Assembly: GCA_943736015.1 (NCBI GenBank)
Contig: OX031059.1
Span: 49,549,159-49,613,158, forward strand
Direction of reading: 5' to 3'
Length of the DNA: 64,000 nucleotides
Source of the DNA: Tridacna crocea
Taxonomy: Eukaryota; Mollusca; Bivalvia; Cardiida; Cardiidae
Shown here piece after piece: positions 18,267 through 53,919 of this stretch; the stretch's first letter is position 1, and every line of letters begins with the position of its first letter. The position numbers were made by a program, and so were the translations under genes. The notes beneath the pieces are model-generated. The model worked only from the letters and a program-made list of their open reading frames with translations. It did no database searches and was not told where the DNA came from.

Positions 18267-18359
18267 TCATTTTCCTTGGCAAAGAAGAGGATTGTTCATT
18301 ACACAAGTTTTGATGCAAGAAAAAGAGCAAATGCAGCGTTTCTTATTGCCAGTTATGCA
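18267..18359 (+). CDS. CDC14: CDC14 exon, A-domain segment ([10 protein letters not shown])
   Basis: An exon of 31 codons, phase 0 to 0, with acceptor TTATTACAG and donor GTAAGT. It reads [20 protein letters not shown] followed by [11 protein letters not shown], a segment highly conserved in CDC14 of animals and yeast. It belongs to the N-terminal A domain, which has a phosphatase fold but no catalytic cysteine and helps form the substrate groove; by alignment from memory it covers about residues 73-103 of human CDC14A. It lies 67 bp downstream of a degenerate hairpin MITE. The exons for the preceding ~72 residues were not found in the 18 kb upstream, so they lie outside the window or are too small to see by eye. 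Confidence 0.95.
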
Positions 18360-28496: not shown

Positions 28497-28576
28497 ATTA
28501 TATATTTAAAGAAAACTCCTGAAGAGGCCTACAGACCATTAGTTGCAGGTTCAAATCCACCATTTTTACCTTTTAG
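28497..28576 (+). CDS. CDC14: CDC14 exon, A-domain segment ([14 protein letters not shown])
   Basis: An 80-bp exon, phase 0 to 2, with acceptor ATCATTTCAG and donor GTAAGT. It encodes [18 protein letters not shown] then SNPPFLPF, plus two bases of an Arg codon completed by the next exon (AG|A). [12 protein letters not shown] and the [10 protein letters not shown] stretch are CDC14 hallmarks in the A domain, about residues 104-130. The intron before it is about 10.1 kb and holds more than a dozen hairpin MITEs. The downstream intron starts with 313 bp free of recognisable repeats apart from a type D palindrome. Confidence 0.95.
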
Positions 28577-32818: not shown

Positions 32819-32885
32819 AGATGCTTCATTTGGTGCATGTACATACAACCTCACCTTGTTAGACTGTCTCCATGGTTTGAATAAG
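32819..32885 (+). CDS. CDC14: CDC14 exon, A-domain segment ([15 protein letters not shown])
   Basis: A 67-bp exon, phase 2 to 0, with acceptor TTATTTTCAG and donor GTACGT. The first base completes Arg (AGA), followed by [20 protein letters not shown] and NK. The family motif is DASFGxCTYNLTILDCLxGL, near residues 131-152 of the A domain. A complete hairpin MITE begins 131 bp after the exon (33016). Confidence 0.95.
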
Positions 32886-34448: not shown

Positions 34449-34511
34449 GCCTTAGCAAATGGGTTTTTTAATTTTGACACATTTGATGTGGATGAATATG
34501 AGCATTACGAG
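34449..34511 (+). CDS. CDC14: CDC14 exon, A-domain end (FDVDEYEHYE)
   Basis: A 63-bp exon, phase 0 to 0, with acceptor CTTTACAG and donor GTGGGT. It encodes ALANGFFNFDTFDVDEYEHY plus E. FDVDEYEHYE is nearly invariant in CDC14 and sits at the end of the A domain, just before the linker into the catalytic domain. The next exon exists in two versions about 10 and 12 kb downstream. A diverged hairpin MITE starts 62 bp after the donor site. Confidence 0.95.
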
Positions 34512-37087: not shown

Positions 37088-37620
37088 GACCCAGTTTTCT
37101 CATGGTATGGCTTCTTTACTTATTTGAAAAAAAATATCAACCAAGAACACACTGATCAATGTGAGCCGCGGACACCATGTGTTCTCGGTACACCAGATCA
37201 AATTTTTCCATGGAAGAACCGAAGGTGGTGTAAGTATTTTCATTTTTATGGACCTGATTAACCTAGATAGAAATGTTGATTTACAGCAATGTCAAGACGA
37301 ATGATTGATCTGTTTACACACATACTAGGGAATAATAATACCATCATATAAGCGAGCTGTGGCTTAATGAGCAACTGGGGTCTTATTGTTTTGAAGTTTG
37401 TTGCCGATTTTCGGACAAAATCCCCTAACCATTGTTCATTTTACAAGTTTGTATGATAAGATAAATGTATTCCCTAAAGGAACACAAAATTTCACTTAGA
37501 AATGTCCATCCAAAGCGAAGATATACGTTTTTGAATGGACCTGGGTAGAGGAAAATATGCTAACAAGACACCATTTTCATTTTCAGAGTATGTACATGGA
37601 CACCAGATCAGAAACAGATT

Positions 37621-37845
37621 GTGGTAACTGGACACCAACCTTTAAATCATCAATATTTCTGCCTGAAACTGGATGCATGGGCTGTATACGAAGACTATTT
37701 TTGTAAACATTATGTCACTACGGTCCATTACCTGATAAAGAACATGTTCAACGCAATTTCATTACTTGTAGCACTTGCTTTTTTGAAATATTTGCAATGT
37801 TACGGCAATTTACGAAGTAGACCTACGATGCTTGATCACAAATGA
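37621..37845 (+). pseudogene. 74-codon open frame in left arm, unknown
   Basis: MVTGHQPLNHQYFCLKLDAW then a Cys- and aromatic-rich stretch and a hydrophobic segment (FNAISLLVALAFLKYL). The same frame lies in the right arm (39972-40196) with one residue change seen (AVYEDYF versus AEYEDYF). It may be an exon remnant: an AG precedes it at 37587, and exon-like sequence with a GTAAGT donor lies near 37220. I recognise no family. Confidence 0.3.
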
Positions 37846-38582: not shown

Positions 38583-39224
38583 TGATCATGATATAATGAG
38601 ATATCAATCTTTATTGTTAGAAACTTGCATAGTTCTTGGAAATGCAGCATTAGTGCTCAGAAATAGTTTTGTACGTAGTGTGTTAGGAAATTATTGGAGA
38701 GGTTAATTGCAGCCATGGCAAATTACTAAATTAAATCTTTTCTAAAATTCGTCATTTATAAAAAATAAACCATCCCTATTTCCTGTTTCGGTTTTTTTTT
38801 ATTTCGCTTTATTTACAAAACCATGACGAAACAGACTGTGTATCAGAACAATTACGCTCGAAGAGATAGAATTAGACAGCAAATTCTGTGGCAGTCTGCA
38901 ATTTGAACTCACTACTGTTGGAGGGTCTGATGACCTCTCCAATAAATTTCAGCAATACGAAATACAGTTAAAGCTGGCATGTTGGCCACCTGTATTAAGC
39001 AAGCAACCTAAATAAACAAGCATACATGTAGTTCCCGACAAATAGCAATGCACAGACATTCATCTGTATCAAACAAGCACCTGCATTTGGCAAGCTTTTT
39101 TGACCGTCTCTTTGGTAATTGATTAATATAGGTTGAACAGTATCTATTCCTGAGCACTAATGCTGCATTTCCAAGAACTTTGTAAGTTTGTAACAATAAA
39201 AATTAATATCTCATATATCATGAT
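38583..39224. mobile_element. Inner foldback element, ~80-bp arms
   Basis: Arms 38583-38666 and 39146-39224 pair: GATCATGATATAATGAGATA against TATCTCATATATCATGATC, and TTCTTGGAAATGCAGCATTA against its complement. The ~480-bp interior has no recognised gene. Its right arm overlaps the 3' end of the LINE frame by a few bases. Confidence 0.7.
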
Positions 39225-39800
39225 CTATGTATGATTTAAGCACGTCTCTCCAGAAATCGTTTTTTGTCACTTTCGAGATGAGTTCGGAATAGGCTTTTCC
39301 TAAATTTATTATTTTTCTTACGTCCATCGTGTCATATACTAGCTGATAGCATTTATTAGGTTTACAATTTATTAGGTTTTTAAACCATTTTAATTTCATG
39401 CTAACGTTAAAGCTTTTGATGTCTATCATTTTCATACCACCTTCTTCGTAGTTTTTTATAAAAACATTTTTTTTAATTTTTGCCCTTCCATCCCATACAA
39501 AGTTGTATAATAAATCATTTAAACGTTTTATGAAATCTGTTGTCAGAGAAGGGAGACTTATAAATAAATGTGTTAAAAGTGGAACAAGAAGTGATTTTAC
39601 CACAGTTATTCTACCAATAGGTGTAAGCTTTCTTCTTTTCCAGTAGGCTATGCATTTTGAAATAGTTTTAAGTTTCGGTTCATAATTTAAATCTATCATC
39701 TTATGAATATTAATGTCAAAAGTTTATCCAAGTAGCACAAATTGAGTTTCACCCCAGTTTAATTTCCATTTAGTTTTTATCGAATATGCGCTATATGTAC
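39211..39800 (-). pseudogene. LINE reverse-transcriptase C-terminal fragment
   Basis: The minus-strand frame from 39699 to 39211 reads IAYWKRRKLTPIGRITVVKS, then LLYNFVWDG, NYEEGGMKMIDIKSFNVSMK and LKWFKNLI. This is the region after the RT catalytic domain in L1/Tx1-like non-LTR elements. Upstream the frame continues (TKWKLNWGETQFVLLG) across one in-frame TAA near 39725 to about 39800, where it abuts the inverted-repeat arm. No catalytic YxDD and no endonuclease: a 5'-truncated dead copy. Confidence 0.8.
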
Positions 39801-39971: not shown

Positions 39972-40196
39972 TCATTTGTGATCAAGCATCGTAGGTCTAC
40001 TTCGTAAATTGCCGTAACATTGCAAATATTTCAAAAAAGCAAGTGCTACAAGTAATGAAATTGCGTTGAACATGTTCTTTATCAGGTAATGGACCGTAGT
40101 GACATAATGTTTACAAAAATAGTCTTCGTATTCAGCCCATGCATCCAGTTTCAGGCAGAAATATTGATGATTTAAAGGTTGGTGTCCAGTTACCAC
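39972..40196 (-). pseudogene. 74-codon open frame in right arm, unknown
   Basis: Inverted twin of the frame at 37621-37845. Open in both arms and of unknown identity; preservation may only reflect recent duplication or conversion. Confidence 0.3.
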
Positions 40197-40679
40197 AATC
40201 TGTTTCTGATCTGGTGTCCATGTACATACTCTGAAAATGAAAATGGTGTCTTGTTAGCATATTTTCCTCTACCCAGGTCCATTCAAAAACGTATATCTTC
40301 GCTTTGGATGGACATTTCTAAGTGAAATTTTGTGTTCCTTTAGGGAATACATTTATCTTATCATACAAACTTGTAAAATGAACAATGGTTAGGGGATTTT
40401 GTCCGAAAATCGGCAACAAACTTCAAAACAATAAGACCCCAGTTGCTCATAAAGCCACAGCTCGCTTATATGATGGTATTATTATTCCCTAGTATGTGTG
40501 TAAACAGATCGATCATTCGTCTTTACTTTGCTGTAAATCAACATTTCTATCTAGGTTAATCAGGTCCATAAAAATGAAAATACTTACACCACCTCCGGTT
40601 CTTCCATGGAAAAATTTGATCTGGTGTACCGAGAACACATGGTGTCCGCGGCTCACGTTGATCAGTGTGAAGAACCAGT

Positions 40680-43736: not shown

Positions 43737-44088
43737 TTAACCCTTTACCAAACGACAAAATTATAGAACAGTCCAAATTGAAAGCATTTGAAGATGACAA
43801 CCTAAGTATGTCTCAAAAATTGAAATTTGTCCTGGGAAGTATAGAAAACATTGTGGGAAAAGGAGAAAATGCTGGTTACCAAGTTTTATTGACCCTGAAG
43901 AAGAAACCTTTTTAAAACATGATGGGAAAAGGAGAATATGCTGGTAACCAGAATTTTCTCCTTTTTTCCGTCCTTGTTTTGTACCTTATTATAGACGGAA
44001 ATAATCATTTTGGCTACATTGAATATGTTGTCTGCTAATGCTTTGAATTTGGTTTAGTTCATCATTTTGTCATTTGGTAAAGAGTTAA
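43737..44088. mobile_element. Tail-to-tail fusion of two type A MITEs
   Basis: TTAACCCTTTACCAAACGAC through the left arm and GGTTACC, then a switch at AAGTTTTATTGACCCTG into a + oriented unit with its own hairpin, ending TTTGGTAAAGAGTTAA. Confidence 0.88.
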
Positions 44089-44094
44089 AAGAAA

Positions 44095-44257
44095 AAAATG
44101 ATTTTGACACGAAACTTTCATCTTTTCCATCTGCTGTGTAAATGATAGTGAAATCCATAATTTGCTATGATTTGAAAAAATGATTTTGTCATGAAGCGTT
44201 CATCTCTTCCACCTGTTGTGTAAATGATAGTAAAATCCATAATTTGCTATAATTTTG
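44095..44257 (+). repeat. Tandem duplication, two ~83-bp units
   Basis: AAAAATGATTTTGACACGAAAC and AAAAATGATTTTGTCATGAAGC start two copies; each contains GTGTAAATGATAGTRAAATCC and ends TAATTTGCTAT. Confidence 0.8.
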
Positions 44258-44386
44258 AACAAAAGGGTGAGGATTTGTATTATTATTTTCTGTTCCAGGT
44301 ATTAGCATTTCTTATATATGAGTTTTTTTGGTGTAATATAGTATGACAATTTCATTATTGCTAACCATGTCATCTCATCATTGCAG

Positions 44387-44474
44387 AAAGTAGAAAACGG
44401 AGATTTCAACTGGATTGTGCCAAATAAATTCTTAGCATTTTGTGGACCTCATCCTAAAACAAAGATTGAAAATG
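44387..44474 (+). CDS. CDC14: CDC14 exon, version a of a duplicated exon
   Basis: An 88-bp exon, phase 0 to 1, with acceptor CATTGCAG and a weak-looking donor GTAACA. It encodes [18 protein letters not shown] then [11 protein letters not shown] plus the first base of Gly. This is the start of the catalytic B domain, about residues 174-202. A second exon of the same length and phase lies at 46194. The two share 22 of 29 residues; version a has Phe at position 7, Asn at 13, Leu at 16, Cys at 19 and Thr at 25. Including both gives 176 bp and shifts the frame, so transcripts should use one or the other. It is intact, with no stop and no splice-site loss. Confidence 0.9.
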
Positions 44475-44706
44475 GTAACATCAGTTCTTATGGCAACCTA
44501 GTCTAGAATGCAACCCTTTTGCATTGTGTCCCTTGTGTGACCATATACCCAGATTTAGACAGGGACTAACCATTCTACTAATACATGTATCTGCAAAATA
44601 CCCTTTTTTTGTCACGATAAGCAACATATCATTCAATTAGAACCAGCTGTTCATAGACATGCACTTATTTTTGCTGGAATGTCTAAACCCAGTTGACAGA
44701 ATAGAT

Positions 44707-44760
44707 TCTAGATCAGATGATGTTAAACACATTCTGGTTTTGATCTGAACTGTCTGCAAT
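44707..44760. repeat. Type D short palindromic repeat, decayed
   Basis: TCTAGATCAGATGATG ... CTGGTTTTGATCTGAACTG then TCTGCAA. Confidence 0.45.
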
Positions 44761-44784
44761 TAATCCTAGAGTTGAGCTTTAGAT

Positions 44785-45003
44785 TTAACCCTTTACCACA
44801 CAATGCACACTTTTAATGACCCTGTAGAAGAACCCTTTTGAAAACGTTGTGGAAAAAGGAGAAAATGGCTACCATTTTATCCTTTTCCTACAATGTTTTC
44901 TACCCTATCGAACAAAAAATTTGCATAATTGAGCCATGATGAATTTTTCTTCTGCAAAAGCCTTCAATTTGGTCTGAAATTTTGCCGTCTGGTAAATGGT
45001 TAA
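44785..45003 (+). mobile_element. Type A MITE, apex of hairpin lost
   Basis: TTAACCCTTTACCACACAATG to TCTGGTAAATGGTTAA; GGAGAAAATGGCTACCATTTTATCC has a shortened stem. Confidence 0.9.
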
Positions 45004-45353
45004 AGGATTAAATGGTAAGTAACATGCATCAAAAAGGGTATTTAACATGATACTTACTGTATGTCTTGAGTTTTAACAATGGTATGCTCACATGTTTGCC
45101 AGGTAGTCAAAGCAGCCTATACTTACTGTCTGTTACTTACTTTATTTCTTATTTAATTACAAGGTGAATGAATGTAAGACATGTTATTCACCTTGAAAGT
45201 TTGTAGAACATGATAAATGTTACAGTAGTCTTGGCAGACATGGTGGCATAGAAACATTTTTATGTGTATATATTCGCAGGTAACAAATCATCTGGAACAC
45301 ATCCTTATCCGTAGCATATGCTTTTAAGGGTTTAATGGTTGTTTAATGGTTGT
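45004..45353. other. No gene or repeat recognised
   Basis: Intronic sequence between the two versions of the duplicated CDC14 exon. Confidence 0.45.
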
Positions 45354-45582
45354 TTAACTCTTTATCACACAAGAAAATTTTAGACTGGTCCAAATTGAAA
45401 GCATTTGCAGACAACAAAATAAAGGTGACTAAAGAATAGAAATTTGTTCTGAGAAGGGTAGAAAACACTGTGGGAAAAGGAGAAAATGCTGGTTACCAGC
45501 ATTTTCTCCTTTTCCCATAGTGTTTTCAAAAGGATTCTTTGTCAGGGGCATCAAAAGTAGGGATTGTGTGGTGATGGGTTAA
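45354..45582 (-). mobile_element. Type A hairpin MITE, complete
   Basis: 229 bp, between the two alternative CDC14 exons. CACTGTGGG pairs with CCCATAGTG; the stem is otherwise perfect. Confidence 0.95.
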
Positions 45583-46193
45583 ACTGTTACAGGACAAATG
45601 ACAATTTCTTATTGTATTTATTGTTCATCAAAGATGAAAAGTAGAGTTTCTTGGTAATGTTTGCTTCAAAGGATCTCTGTGCACCAAATATTCCAACCCA
45701 CTCTGTAAAGATGAAAAGTAGTACACAAAGCTGCCTTAGACTGGCGAATGTCTTTCACTGTATTTCAGAAGGGCAAATAACAACACATGTTTCTGTGACT
45801 TTGCTGTAGTTGTTTACCTTGTTTATTAGAATGACTTAAGTCCAGGGCCTGAATGCCAGGCTAAAGGCTACCTGTACTGAATTTAAACTGATAGTAGTTA
45901 AAATTGTAGGCTATTTCTTAACAGAAAAGATGTTTACTCTTATGGTTGTGATACATGTTCCAGAGGATTTGTTTAGAACTGCTTTATGTCTGTACTTTTC
46001 TCAGTGTTCTTCACATGCCATCCCTACCCATTGTTCCTCACAGTTAAATTTCATCTCTTCATACAGATGTAGTACCCACTTACAGTTTTCTAATACTGCA
46101 TTCATCCCCATACATCACAAGCATACAGCTCTCATTCTCGGACTTCTATTTAATATTAATTACTTCTATTTGCTTTCGCCTTCTTTCAAACAG
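45583..46193. other. Intron upstream of CDC14 exon version b
   Basis: No repeat recognised; a long pyrimidine-rich approach (TTCTATTTGCTTTCGCCTTC) precedes the acceptor at 46192-46193. Confidence 0.5.
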
Positions 46194-46281
46194 AGAGTTG
46201 AAAATGGAGATCTAAATTGGATCATTCCAGACAAGTTTGTAGCATTTAGTGGACCCCATCCAAAGAGCAAGATAGAAAATG
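46194..46281 (+). CDS. CDC14: CDC14 exon, version b of a duplicated exon
   Basis: An 88-bp exon, phase 0 to 1, with acceptor TTCAAACAG and donor GTAGGT, a better match to consensus than the donor of version a. It encodes [18 protein letters not shown] then [11 protein letters not shown] plus the first base of Gly. It has the [11 protein letters not shown] spelling that I recall from vertebrate CDC14A, so it may be the ancestral version. Many third-position differences from version a, with only 7 residue changes, suggest an old duplication kept under selection in both copies. The intronic flanks of the two exons do not look alike. Confidence 0.92.
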
Positions 46282-46837
46282 GTAGGTTTTGTATGGAGTT
46301 AGTGGAATTTTACAGAGTGAAAGTGATGGCTATACTTGTAGATCTAATTTCTGTTTTTATTGGCATCTACTTAATACTGTCCGGTGACTGTTGCTATTTG
46401 GCTTTGGCTTAATCCATTACCTTTTGCTTGTTTGTGGCTGTCTTAATTTCCAGTAAATAAATATGACCGGTGACAAGCTAGGTAGGTGAGTGTTGTTCTT
46501 GTCAGACTGTTTGCATGATAAAAATCATGCCGTAGAAAATTGCTAAAGAATTCTTTCTTTGGTGTCTTTGAGATGAAAGTTCGGTAACTTTTAACTTGAC
46601 CATAGGAATCACTAGGTTCAGAAGAGTTGCACTAACCTCACTTACTTTACTTTGACTAACTCTATCTAATTTCTGTGATTCCATATACCGTATTTATTCT
46701 AATAATCGCCCTTATTCTAATAAACGCCCAGTCCCCAAAGAAGCGCATAAAATCGGCCGTAAAGTGGTAGATTTTACTGAAAAGTTGGTGATTCTATTAA
46801 ACGCCCACCACCGAGTCAAAAAATTTCGACTTGCGGT

Positions 46838-47242
46838 CTATGCAGTAATTTTCAGTATTTCCTTCTTTAAAAATAATCGCACTTCAGCTTTCCTCTCACC
46901 AGATCTGTACAGTTTATATGAACATGGCACTTCTATGCTGCCATCCTTCACAAAGATTCCATTCGAGGACGGCCGAGGAGGTCCCGTTATTTCAGCCGAA
47001 ATGTTGACGACAAGGCCGTCATTGAAAAGTTTTGTAAATAATTGACAAAGTCCTTCGGGCACGTGCCCAATAACTATTTCACCTTTTTTCACGATAATTG
47101 CTGATTCACTGTATTCGTTTTCTGGTTCTCGTAAGCATTCTAAAATTGTCCCTTTAGAAAATTCATTTCTGTATACATGATATCCTTTAACAGCAGATTT
47201 CACAGACACTAACATACAAGTTGCCATTATTGTTACAACCAT
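46838..47242 (-). CDS. HIRAN-like domain protein in a transposon
   Basis: 134 codons, ATG at 47242. The segment VKGYHVYRNEF, then LRExENEYSESAIIVKKGE, IVIGHVPEGLCQLFTKLF and IEVPCSYKLY follows the pattern of short HIRAN-like proteins (GYHVYR..., a central D/E-x-Y-A-V strand, IVGHVP, GGLEVPC) that I recall from invertebrate transposon-linked families. HIRAN domains bind DNA ends in helicases such as HLTF; a role here is unknown. The frame is intact but lacks proof of expression, and upstream exons or a fused transposase are not visible. Confidence 0.5.
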   Translation of the reverse strand: MVVTIMATCMLVSVKSAVKGYHVYRNEFSKGTILECLREPENEYSESAIIVKKGEIVIGHVPEGLCQLFTKLFNDGLVVNISAEITGPPRPSSNGIFVKDGSIEVPCSYKLYRSGERKAEVRLFLKKEILKITA

Positions 47243-50545: not shown

Positions 50546-50776
50546 GTTACCCTTTACATGCCCCAGAAGCCTATTTTCCATACTTCAGGAAGCATTCTGT
50601 TACCACCATAGTGCGTCTCAATAAGAAAATTTATGATGCACGGCGGTTTACAGATGCAGGGTTTGATCACTACGATCTTTTCTTTATTGACGGCAGTGTA
50701 CCCAACGATACTATAGTGAGACAGTTTTTAGAGCTTGCTGAAAATGCTGATGGTGCTATAGCTGTTCATTGTAAAG
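50546..50776 (+). CDS. CDC14: CDC14 exon with general-acid loop and catalytic Cys
   Basis: A 231-bp exon, phase 1 to 1, with acceptor TTTTCCAG and donor GTGAGA. It encodes [20 protein letters not shown], then [19 protein letters not shown] and [20 protein letters not shown], ending AIAVHCK. The Asp in FFIDGS is at the place of the general acid of the family. The Cys in AVHCK is the nucleophile, matching Cys278 of human CDC14A. The intron splits the HCxxxxxR P-loop just after the Lys codon. The catalytic residues seen are intact, which supports an active enzyme. A type A MITE begins 44 bp after the donor. Confidence 0.96.
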
Positions 50777-51464: not shown

Positions 51465-51655
51465 CTGGTCTTGGGCGAACAGGAACCTTGATAGCCTGTT
51501 ACATGATGAAACATTACAAATTTACGGCAGCAGAATGTATCGCTTGGTGTCGTATATGTCGACCAGGGTCCATTATAGGACCTCAACAAAACTTCCTGGA
51601 GGAGAAACAAGCATGGATGTGGATGCAAGGGGACTTATTTAGGGCCAAAATAAAG
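51465..51655 (+). CDS. CDC14: CDC14 exon with P-loop arginine (AGLGRTG)
   Basis: A 191-bp exon, phase 1 to 0, with acceptor TATTTTTCAG and donor GTAAGA. With the preceding exon it completes HCKAGLGRTG, including the phosphate-binding Arg, then gives [38 protein letters not shown] and [29 protein letters not shown] is the CDC14 signature that closes the catalytic domain, with its Gln pair near the active site. There are no stops or frameshifts. Confidence 0.97.
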
Positions 51656-53800: not shown

Positions 53801-53919
53801 AGAATATATACTGGTCCAGTCACAAGAGGTACAAGAATAGAAACCCAGGGAGATAAGCTAAACCAGCTGAAACTTTTGCGAGGCAAACACTCAAGGTCGG
53901 CTACTACAGGAGCTTTAAC
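53801..53919 (+). CDS. CDC14: CDC14 exon, C-terminal extension (TQGDKLNQLK)
   Basis: A 119-bp exon, phase 0 to 2, with acceptor CTATCTACAG and donor GTAAGT. It encodes RIYTGPVTRGTRIETQGDKL, NQLKLLRGKHSRSATTGAL and two bases of Thr. TQGDKLxxLK is the last widely conserved CDC14 motif, followed by the start of a Ser/Thr- and Arg-rich tail. A hairpin MITE ends only about 14 bp before the exon, so the likely branch point is transposon-derived. Another MITE begins 37 bp after it. Confidence 0.9.

Follow-up and report, generated by a model that had tools for sequence, protein, structure and literature searches.

Does the CDC14 phosphatase gene at this locus carry two interchangeable versions of one exon, and would each mRNA take only one of them? 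Most of a CDC14 gene lies on the + strand of the 64-kb stretch of genomic DNA analysed here (the window). Its exons were located by tblastn with human CDC14A, and they follow one another at ~18.3, 28.5, 32.8, 34.4, 44.4, 46.2, 50.5 and 51.5 kb. The exons at 44.4 and 46.2 kb, here called A and B, match the same segment of the protein.

18267..18359, + strand: CDC14 exon, N-terminal (DSPn) domain; tblastn identity 73.5% over residues 71-104 of human CDC14A; AG/GT boundaries
28497..28576, + strand: CDC14 exon, N-terminal domain; tblastn identity 73%; AG/GT boundaries
32819..32885, + strand: CDC14 exon, end of N-terminal domain; tblastn identity 79%; AG/GT boundaries
34449..34511, + strand: CDC14 exon directly upstream of the pair, ending ...DEYEHYE, phase 0, donor GTGGGT; tblastn identity 73%
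44387..44474, + strand: exon A, 88 bp, phase 0 to 1, 29 residues, weak donor GTAACA
44475..46193, + strand: intron between A and B, 1719 nt, in which a frequent palindromic repeat occurs twice (about 44784-45000 and 45353-45583)
46194..46281, + strand: exon B, 88 bp, phase 0 to 1, 29 residues, stronger donor GTAGGT
50546..50776, + strand: CDC14 exon following the pair, encoding the catalytic domain as far as HCK; tblastn identity 79% over 77 aa; the only match in the assembly
51465..51655, + strand: CDC14 exon, remaining catalytic domain (GLGRTG...); tblastn identity 80%

Two more N-terminal exons, matching residues 14-46 and about 47-72 of human CDC14A, lie directly upstream of the window, and weaker C-terminal matches were found near 52.9 and 57.9 kb. 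A further CDC14 exon is likely at 53801-53919 (+), preceded by AG and followed by GTAAGT. It encodes TQGDKLNQLKLLR (motif at 53843-53881), which is close to the vertebrate SLiCE pseudosubstrate motif TQGDKLRALKSQR, with Gln, Leu and Lys kept and Arg replaced by Asn. The available text of PMC11407943 leaves the universality of SLiCE open and mentions related sequences in Drosophila and Tetrahymena.

The tandem DSP architecture, DSPn followed by DSPc, is present with either of the twin exons. The DSPc family scored 53.3 and 53.2 in Pfam for the isoforms containing A and B, respectively (cut-off 33.5). DSPn scored 29.6 and 29.4 (cut-off 28.2) with a query that held only the last 24 of the 140 profile positions, the other DSPn exons being recognized by tblastn. 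The HCx5R catalytic motif is present as HCKAGLGR, and human CDC14A is the closest solved structure both for the B isoform (E 8e-124) and for exon A joined to the next exon (E 3e-59). A search of the whole assembly (1,048,827,098 bases, 31 contigs) found one CDC14 gene in 1.05 Gb, with the other CDC14 exons present once each. Residues 1-345 of human CDC14A gave 19 matches at E up to 1, from 22 scored candidates; 10 of these fall in the CDC14 gene, and the 9 found elsewhere are weaker and each lie over the active-site region. Relatives were sought in viral and prokaryote contig collections and none were found there, as expected for an animal gene.

The coordinates, lengths, phases and peptides that a preliminary description had assigned to A and B match the sequence exactly, as do the two donors, and the residue differences were recounted as 7 of 29. 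The two are neighbouring internal exons of equal length (88 and 88 bp), in the same reading frame (phase 0 to 1) and with compatible AG/GT splice sites. They differ at 21 of 88 bases (67 identical), distributed 5/2/14 over the three codon positions, and at 17 of 29 codons, 10 of them synonymously and 7 nonsynonymously. The earlier statement that synonymous changes clearly outnumber residue changes thus holds in direction, by a margin that is not overwhelming as a count. The contrast in rates is stronger than these raw counts: dN was 0.11 (LWL85) and 0.14 (YN00), with a range of 0.10-0.14 across four methods, against a dS of 1.08 (LWL85) and 1.32 (YN00). The NG86 estimate of dS was undefined (saturated), and a maximum-likelihood dS of 8.7 cannot be trusted from 29 codons, a sample that makes any dN/dS imprecise. 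The age of the duplication is uncertain, because only three of the seven fourfold sites common to A and B differ.

The similarity stops at the splice sites. Identity between the flanks of A and B was 33/100 upstream and 27/100 downstream, about the level of chance, and among direct repeats in 43900-46700 the longest one consists of CAG-exon-GTA (94 bases, 78%). Homology that is preserved right up to the splice sites and absent beyond them is the pattern expected from selection on both exons as exons. A larger segmental duplication was ruled out, the identity of the flanks being at chance.

A scan was made beside eight CDC14 exons under WebScipio-like rules, as given in the available text of PMC3228551: similar length, same phase, AG..GT, no stop and a score of at least 15% of the self score. 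Matches occurred only at the twin, with six overlapping candidates for each of A and B, and the best twin reached 81% (A) and 85% (B) of the self score. No twin was found for the other six scanned exons; for those at 50.5 and 51.5 kb only 25+0 and 1+25 candidates existed, so the absence of a twin is weaker evidence there. Five first-order resamples of each intron, scanned likewise, gave no match, and a 30-residue query of the segment hit two places in the whole assembly, both at this locus. The exon pair is confirmed as real and not a chance similarity.

Both copies also appear to be constrained. In a drift simulation, one copy evolved neutrally and the other accepted silent changes only until 21 differences had accumulated (5000 runs per starting sequence). 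Seven or fewer residue changes without a stop were seen in a fraction of 0.001 of the runs from either starting sequence, and the neutral copy carried a stop in 53-59% of the runs. Compared with human CDC14A, exons A and B are each identical at 25 of 29 residues; at the seven sites where they differ from one another, A alone is changed at three, B alone at three and both at one. Given this even divergence and the simulation P of about 0.001, neither copy seems to drift. Unconstrained drift of one copy is unlikely. The pair is conserved and probably old.

The reading frame allows one exon at a time. An mRNA with A alone or B alone has an open frame through the catalytic domain. The claim that both exons together would shift the frame was borne out, since A+B runs into a stop once 5 bases of exon B have been read, and an mRNA with neither exon meets one inside exon 50546-50776. 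Joint use and joint skipping are both predicted to be non-productive, with early stops, and in both mRNAs further exon junctions lie >50 nt downstream of the stop. A stop with exon junctions >50 nt downstream of it usually leads to nonsense-mediated decay, and these mRNAs are expected to decay because their stops are early and so placed; the both-in and both-out products would probably be removed in this way. In the available text of a human survey of such exons (PMC5740500), exons whose length is not a multiple of three occur in 377 of 629 clusters (60%), and the frame-shifting type makes up 91 of 122 annotated pairs versus only 25 of 615 newly predicted exons.

Other modes of exclusion were considered. 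The same survey text places the steric limit at about 50 nt from donor to branch point, and with 1719 nt between A and B steric exclusion was ruled out. Incompatibility of U2 and U12 sites was likewise ruled out, no U12 signature being present at the 4 donors and 3 acceptors checked. As the long intron and the U2-type sites fit neither block, exclusivity would be enforced at least partly by the frame shift and nonsense-mediated decay. Docking/selector RNA structure is one known mechanism of mutual exclusion and is not required. Four tests of 200-400 nt stretches showed no excess of docking/selector pairing, the observed joint pairing being equalled by 10 to 21 of 30 shuffles, and such tests have little power in one species.

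The splice sites of the two exons differ in strength. Scored with a 5' splice-site matrix, donor A reached 0.68 and donor B 3.86, and the six other CDC14 donors 2.18 to 7.18, making donor A the weakest of the eight scored. Donor A beats 93% of intronic GTs and donor B 99%, and the pyrimidine fraction before the exon is 0.65 for A and 0.75 for B. The weaker donor and poorer pyrimidine tract suggest that B is the default and that A is an exon needing help or held back; A is probably the weaker, regulated exon. Three candidate regulatory motifs lie near the pair.

44357..44386, + strand: four YCAY tetramers within the 30 nt that precede exon A, candidate NOVA-type site; 1.3% of 30-nt intron windows have at least four; post hoc
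44565..44582, + strand: ACTAAC-N6-ACTAAT, 90 nt after exon A, resembling a bipartite QKI site; present in 2.9% of random 300-nt stretches of the window; post hoc
46512..46517, + strand: TGCATG (RBFOX-type), 230 nt after exon B; present in 9% of random 300-nt stretches; weak

We take YCAY clusters, the ACTAAC/ACTAAT pair and TGCATG to be motifs of the NOVA, QKI and RBFOX types, respectively. A TGCATG is also found no more than 300 nt downstream of the exons at 28.5 and 50.5 kb, and three YCAY tetramers precede the exon at 28.5 kb. Because eight motif patterns were inspected, post hoc, these motifs serve as leads only. Inverted copies of a repeat stand on either side of exon A (43901-43965 with 45475-45539). 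Looping-out of exon A by these copies is possible, but it would not be specific given the abundance of the repeat, whose 14-mer core GGAGAAAATGCTGG occurs 34 times on the + strand and 32 times on the - strand in 64 kb. The repeat is palindromic, MITE-like and about 230 bp long (e.g. 45353-45583, 44784-45000 and 43900-44089); among the matches listed, the best 15 copies are 85-94% identical, and several open reading frames in the window contain translated repeat.

The explanation we favour, and consider very likely, is that one internal exon of the only CDC14 gene found was long ago duplicated in tandem, giving A and B, and that the two are used mutually exclusively. Each mRNA would take A or B, both exons would be spliced in life, A under regulation and B by default, and two CDC14 isoforms would result that differ at seven residues at the start of the catalytic domain. 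The mutually exclusive reading of the preliminary description stands in part: length, phase, splice-site class, homology, constraint on both copies and the frame shift all agree with it. Counted against it are the weak donor of A, the small share of the frame-shifting type among newly predicted human exons (25/615), the lack of excess docking/selector pairing in the tests made, the post hoc character of the motifs and the shortness of a 29-codon comparison. The support comes from the sequence of a single genome, and on this basis A and B are very probably a working mutually exclusive pair.

One could also suppose that a single exon, probably B, is in use and that the other is dying or very rarely used, as the low score of donor A and its poorer pyrimidine tract would allow. 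This seems unlikely to us in view of the open frame and intact AG/GT sites of both copies, the residue changes far fewer than neutral drift predicts and the symmetry of the changes relative to human CDC14A, although a relic created by recent loss of use could escape such sequence tests. That A and B come from two haplotypes, or from two CDC14 genes wrongly joined in the assembly, is extremely improbable, and nothing seen in the data favours it: alleles would not be expected to have unrelated flanks and a dS of about 1 or more, the other CDC14 exons are present once each, and the contig measures 69.8 Mb.

The early stops of the two frame-shifted products, with junctions downstream, would equally suit a switch in which joint inclusion or skipping lowers CDC14 by nonsense-mediated decay instead of making two proteins. 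A parallel exists in human CDC14B, where, in the available text of PMC10132239, Matrin3 represses exons 13 and 14, exon 13 bears a stop, and CDC14B falls when the stop-bearing exon is included on Matrin3 knockdown. That case resembles the present one in being alternative CDC14 splicing with a frame-ending product expected to be degraded; it differs in that it concerns exons 13-14 and the inclusion of a stop, whereas here homologous exons would be swapped. Nothing obliges a pure poison exon to preserve its coding sequence, whereas both copies here have preserved theirs, and we regard such a switch as very unlikely to be the main function of the pair; it may coexist with a choice between isoforms.

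If A and B are indeed alternatives, the swap would tune the enzyme rather than change it, because the residue changes are mild. We take residue 314 to be the catalytic cysteine of human CDC14B, which would place the segment at residues 210-238 and the D of ENGD at D215. In this numbering the changes between the two exons are K/R210, F/L216, V/I220, N/D222, L/V225, C/S228 and T/S234. The acidic groove described by Gray et al. in 2003 reportedly includes D215 together with E206 and E209, which are encoded by the preceding exon; D215 is identical in A and B. Two isoforms with different properties, as the preliminary description proposed, are plausible on these mild changes.

The vertebrate CDC14A/CDC14B pair offers a likeness, two CDC14 proteins with small changes in the same segment, and a difference: the vertebrate pair arose by whole-gene duplication, whereas one 88-bp exon is duplicated here. 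Human CDC14A and CDC14B differ from each other at 14 of the 29 positions, and these include all seven A/B sites (chance 0.0022); four of the seven show the same residue pair. The overlap can reflect tolerated sites as easily as parallel specialization. A one-to-one correspondence of A with CDC14A and B with CDC14B was ruled out, as the sites are mosaic and both exons are closer to CDC14A (25/29 each) than to CDC14B (17/29 and 18/29). Exon duplication may here substitute for the gene duplication that vertebrates show. A more far-reaching idea, to which we give a small but real chance, is that a lineage with a single CDC14 reached a division of labour like that of CDC14A and CDC14B through the 88-bp duplication. 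A tissue-controlled switch (for example repression of A by a YCAY-binding protein, activation of A by QKI and activation of B by RBFOX) would then pick between enzymes whose substrate grooves are unlike in shape and charge (F/L216, V/I220, N/D222) next to the conserved acidic residue.

The pair fits a known class, mutually exclusive exons from tandem duplication as defined by the WebScipio/Kassiopeia criteria and seen in human substitution events. In the available text on that class (PMC3228551, PMC5740500, PMC9741552 and PMC3923563), as here, adjacent homologous internal exons share length, phase and splice class, substitutions are conservative and joint use breaks the frame. The present pair, predicted from genome sequence, differs in its host gene, CDC14. 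The main text of these four exon-pair papers does not mention CDC14 (0 occurrences), and no homologous exon pair in CDC14 was found in the available text of the literature on CDC14 with splicing or gene structure. The remark in the preliminary description that no such pair is known in CDC14 therefore agrees with the literature searched, with the reservation that one human CDC14B event of the mutually exclusive type, ‘CDC14B-86977-ME’, is listed in a cancer splicing signature (PMC6503875), whose available text does not specify the exons. In the available part of a PTBP1 study, one mouse Cdc14b exon is among the predicted repressed exons (PMC3907290). The kind of event is common in animal genes, and in the literature searched CDC14 is unreported as a host gene.

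CDC14 phosphatases reverse proline-directed phosphorylation, and a natural pair of enzymes differing at seven places in a 29-residue piece amounts to a ready-made specificity experiment. The role of CDC14 in animal mitotic exit is called ill-defined in the available text of PMC6406801.

Several other elements were noted around the gene. An antisense open frame of 134 aa lies within the intron that follows exon B, at 46838-47242 (-). It encodes a HIRAN domain (Pfam E 3e-06, above cut-off) and may belong to a mobile element or represent a small nested gene. A 162-aa open frame at 39211-39699 (-) looks like the end of a reverse transcriptase, with no Pfam family match. It is flanked by inverted stretches at 37597-37755 (+) and 40062-40220 (-) that encode almost identical peptides (WTPDQKQIVVTGHQP...). 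Two 82-bp units arranged in tandem, 88% identical to each other, occupy 44093-44256 and end 130 bp before exon A.
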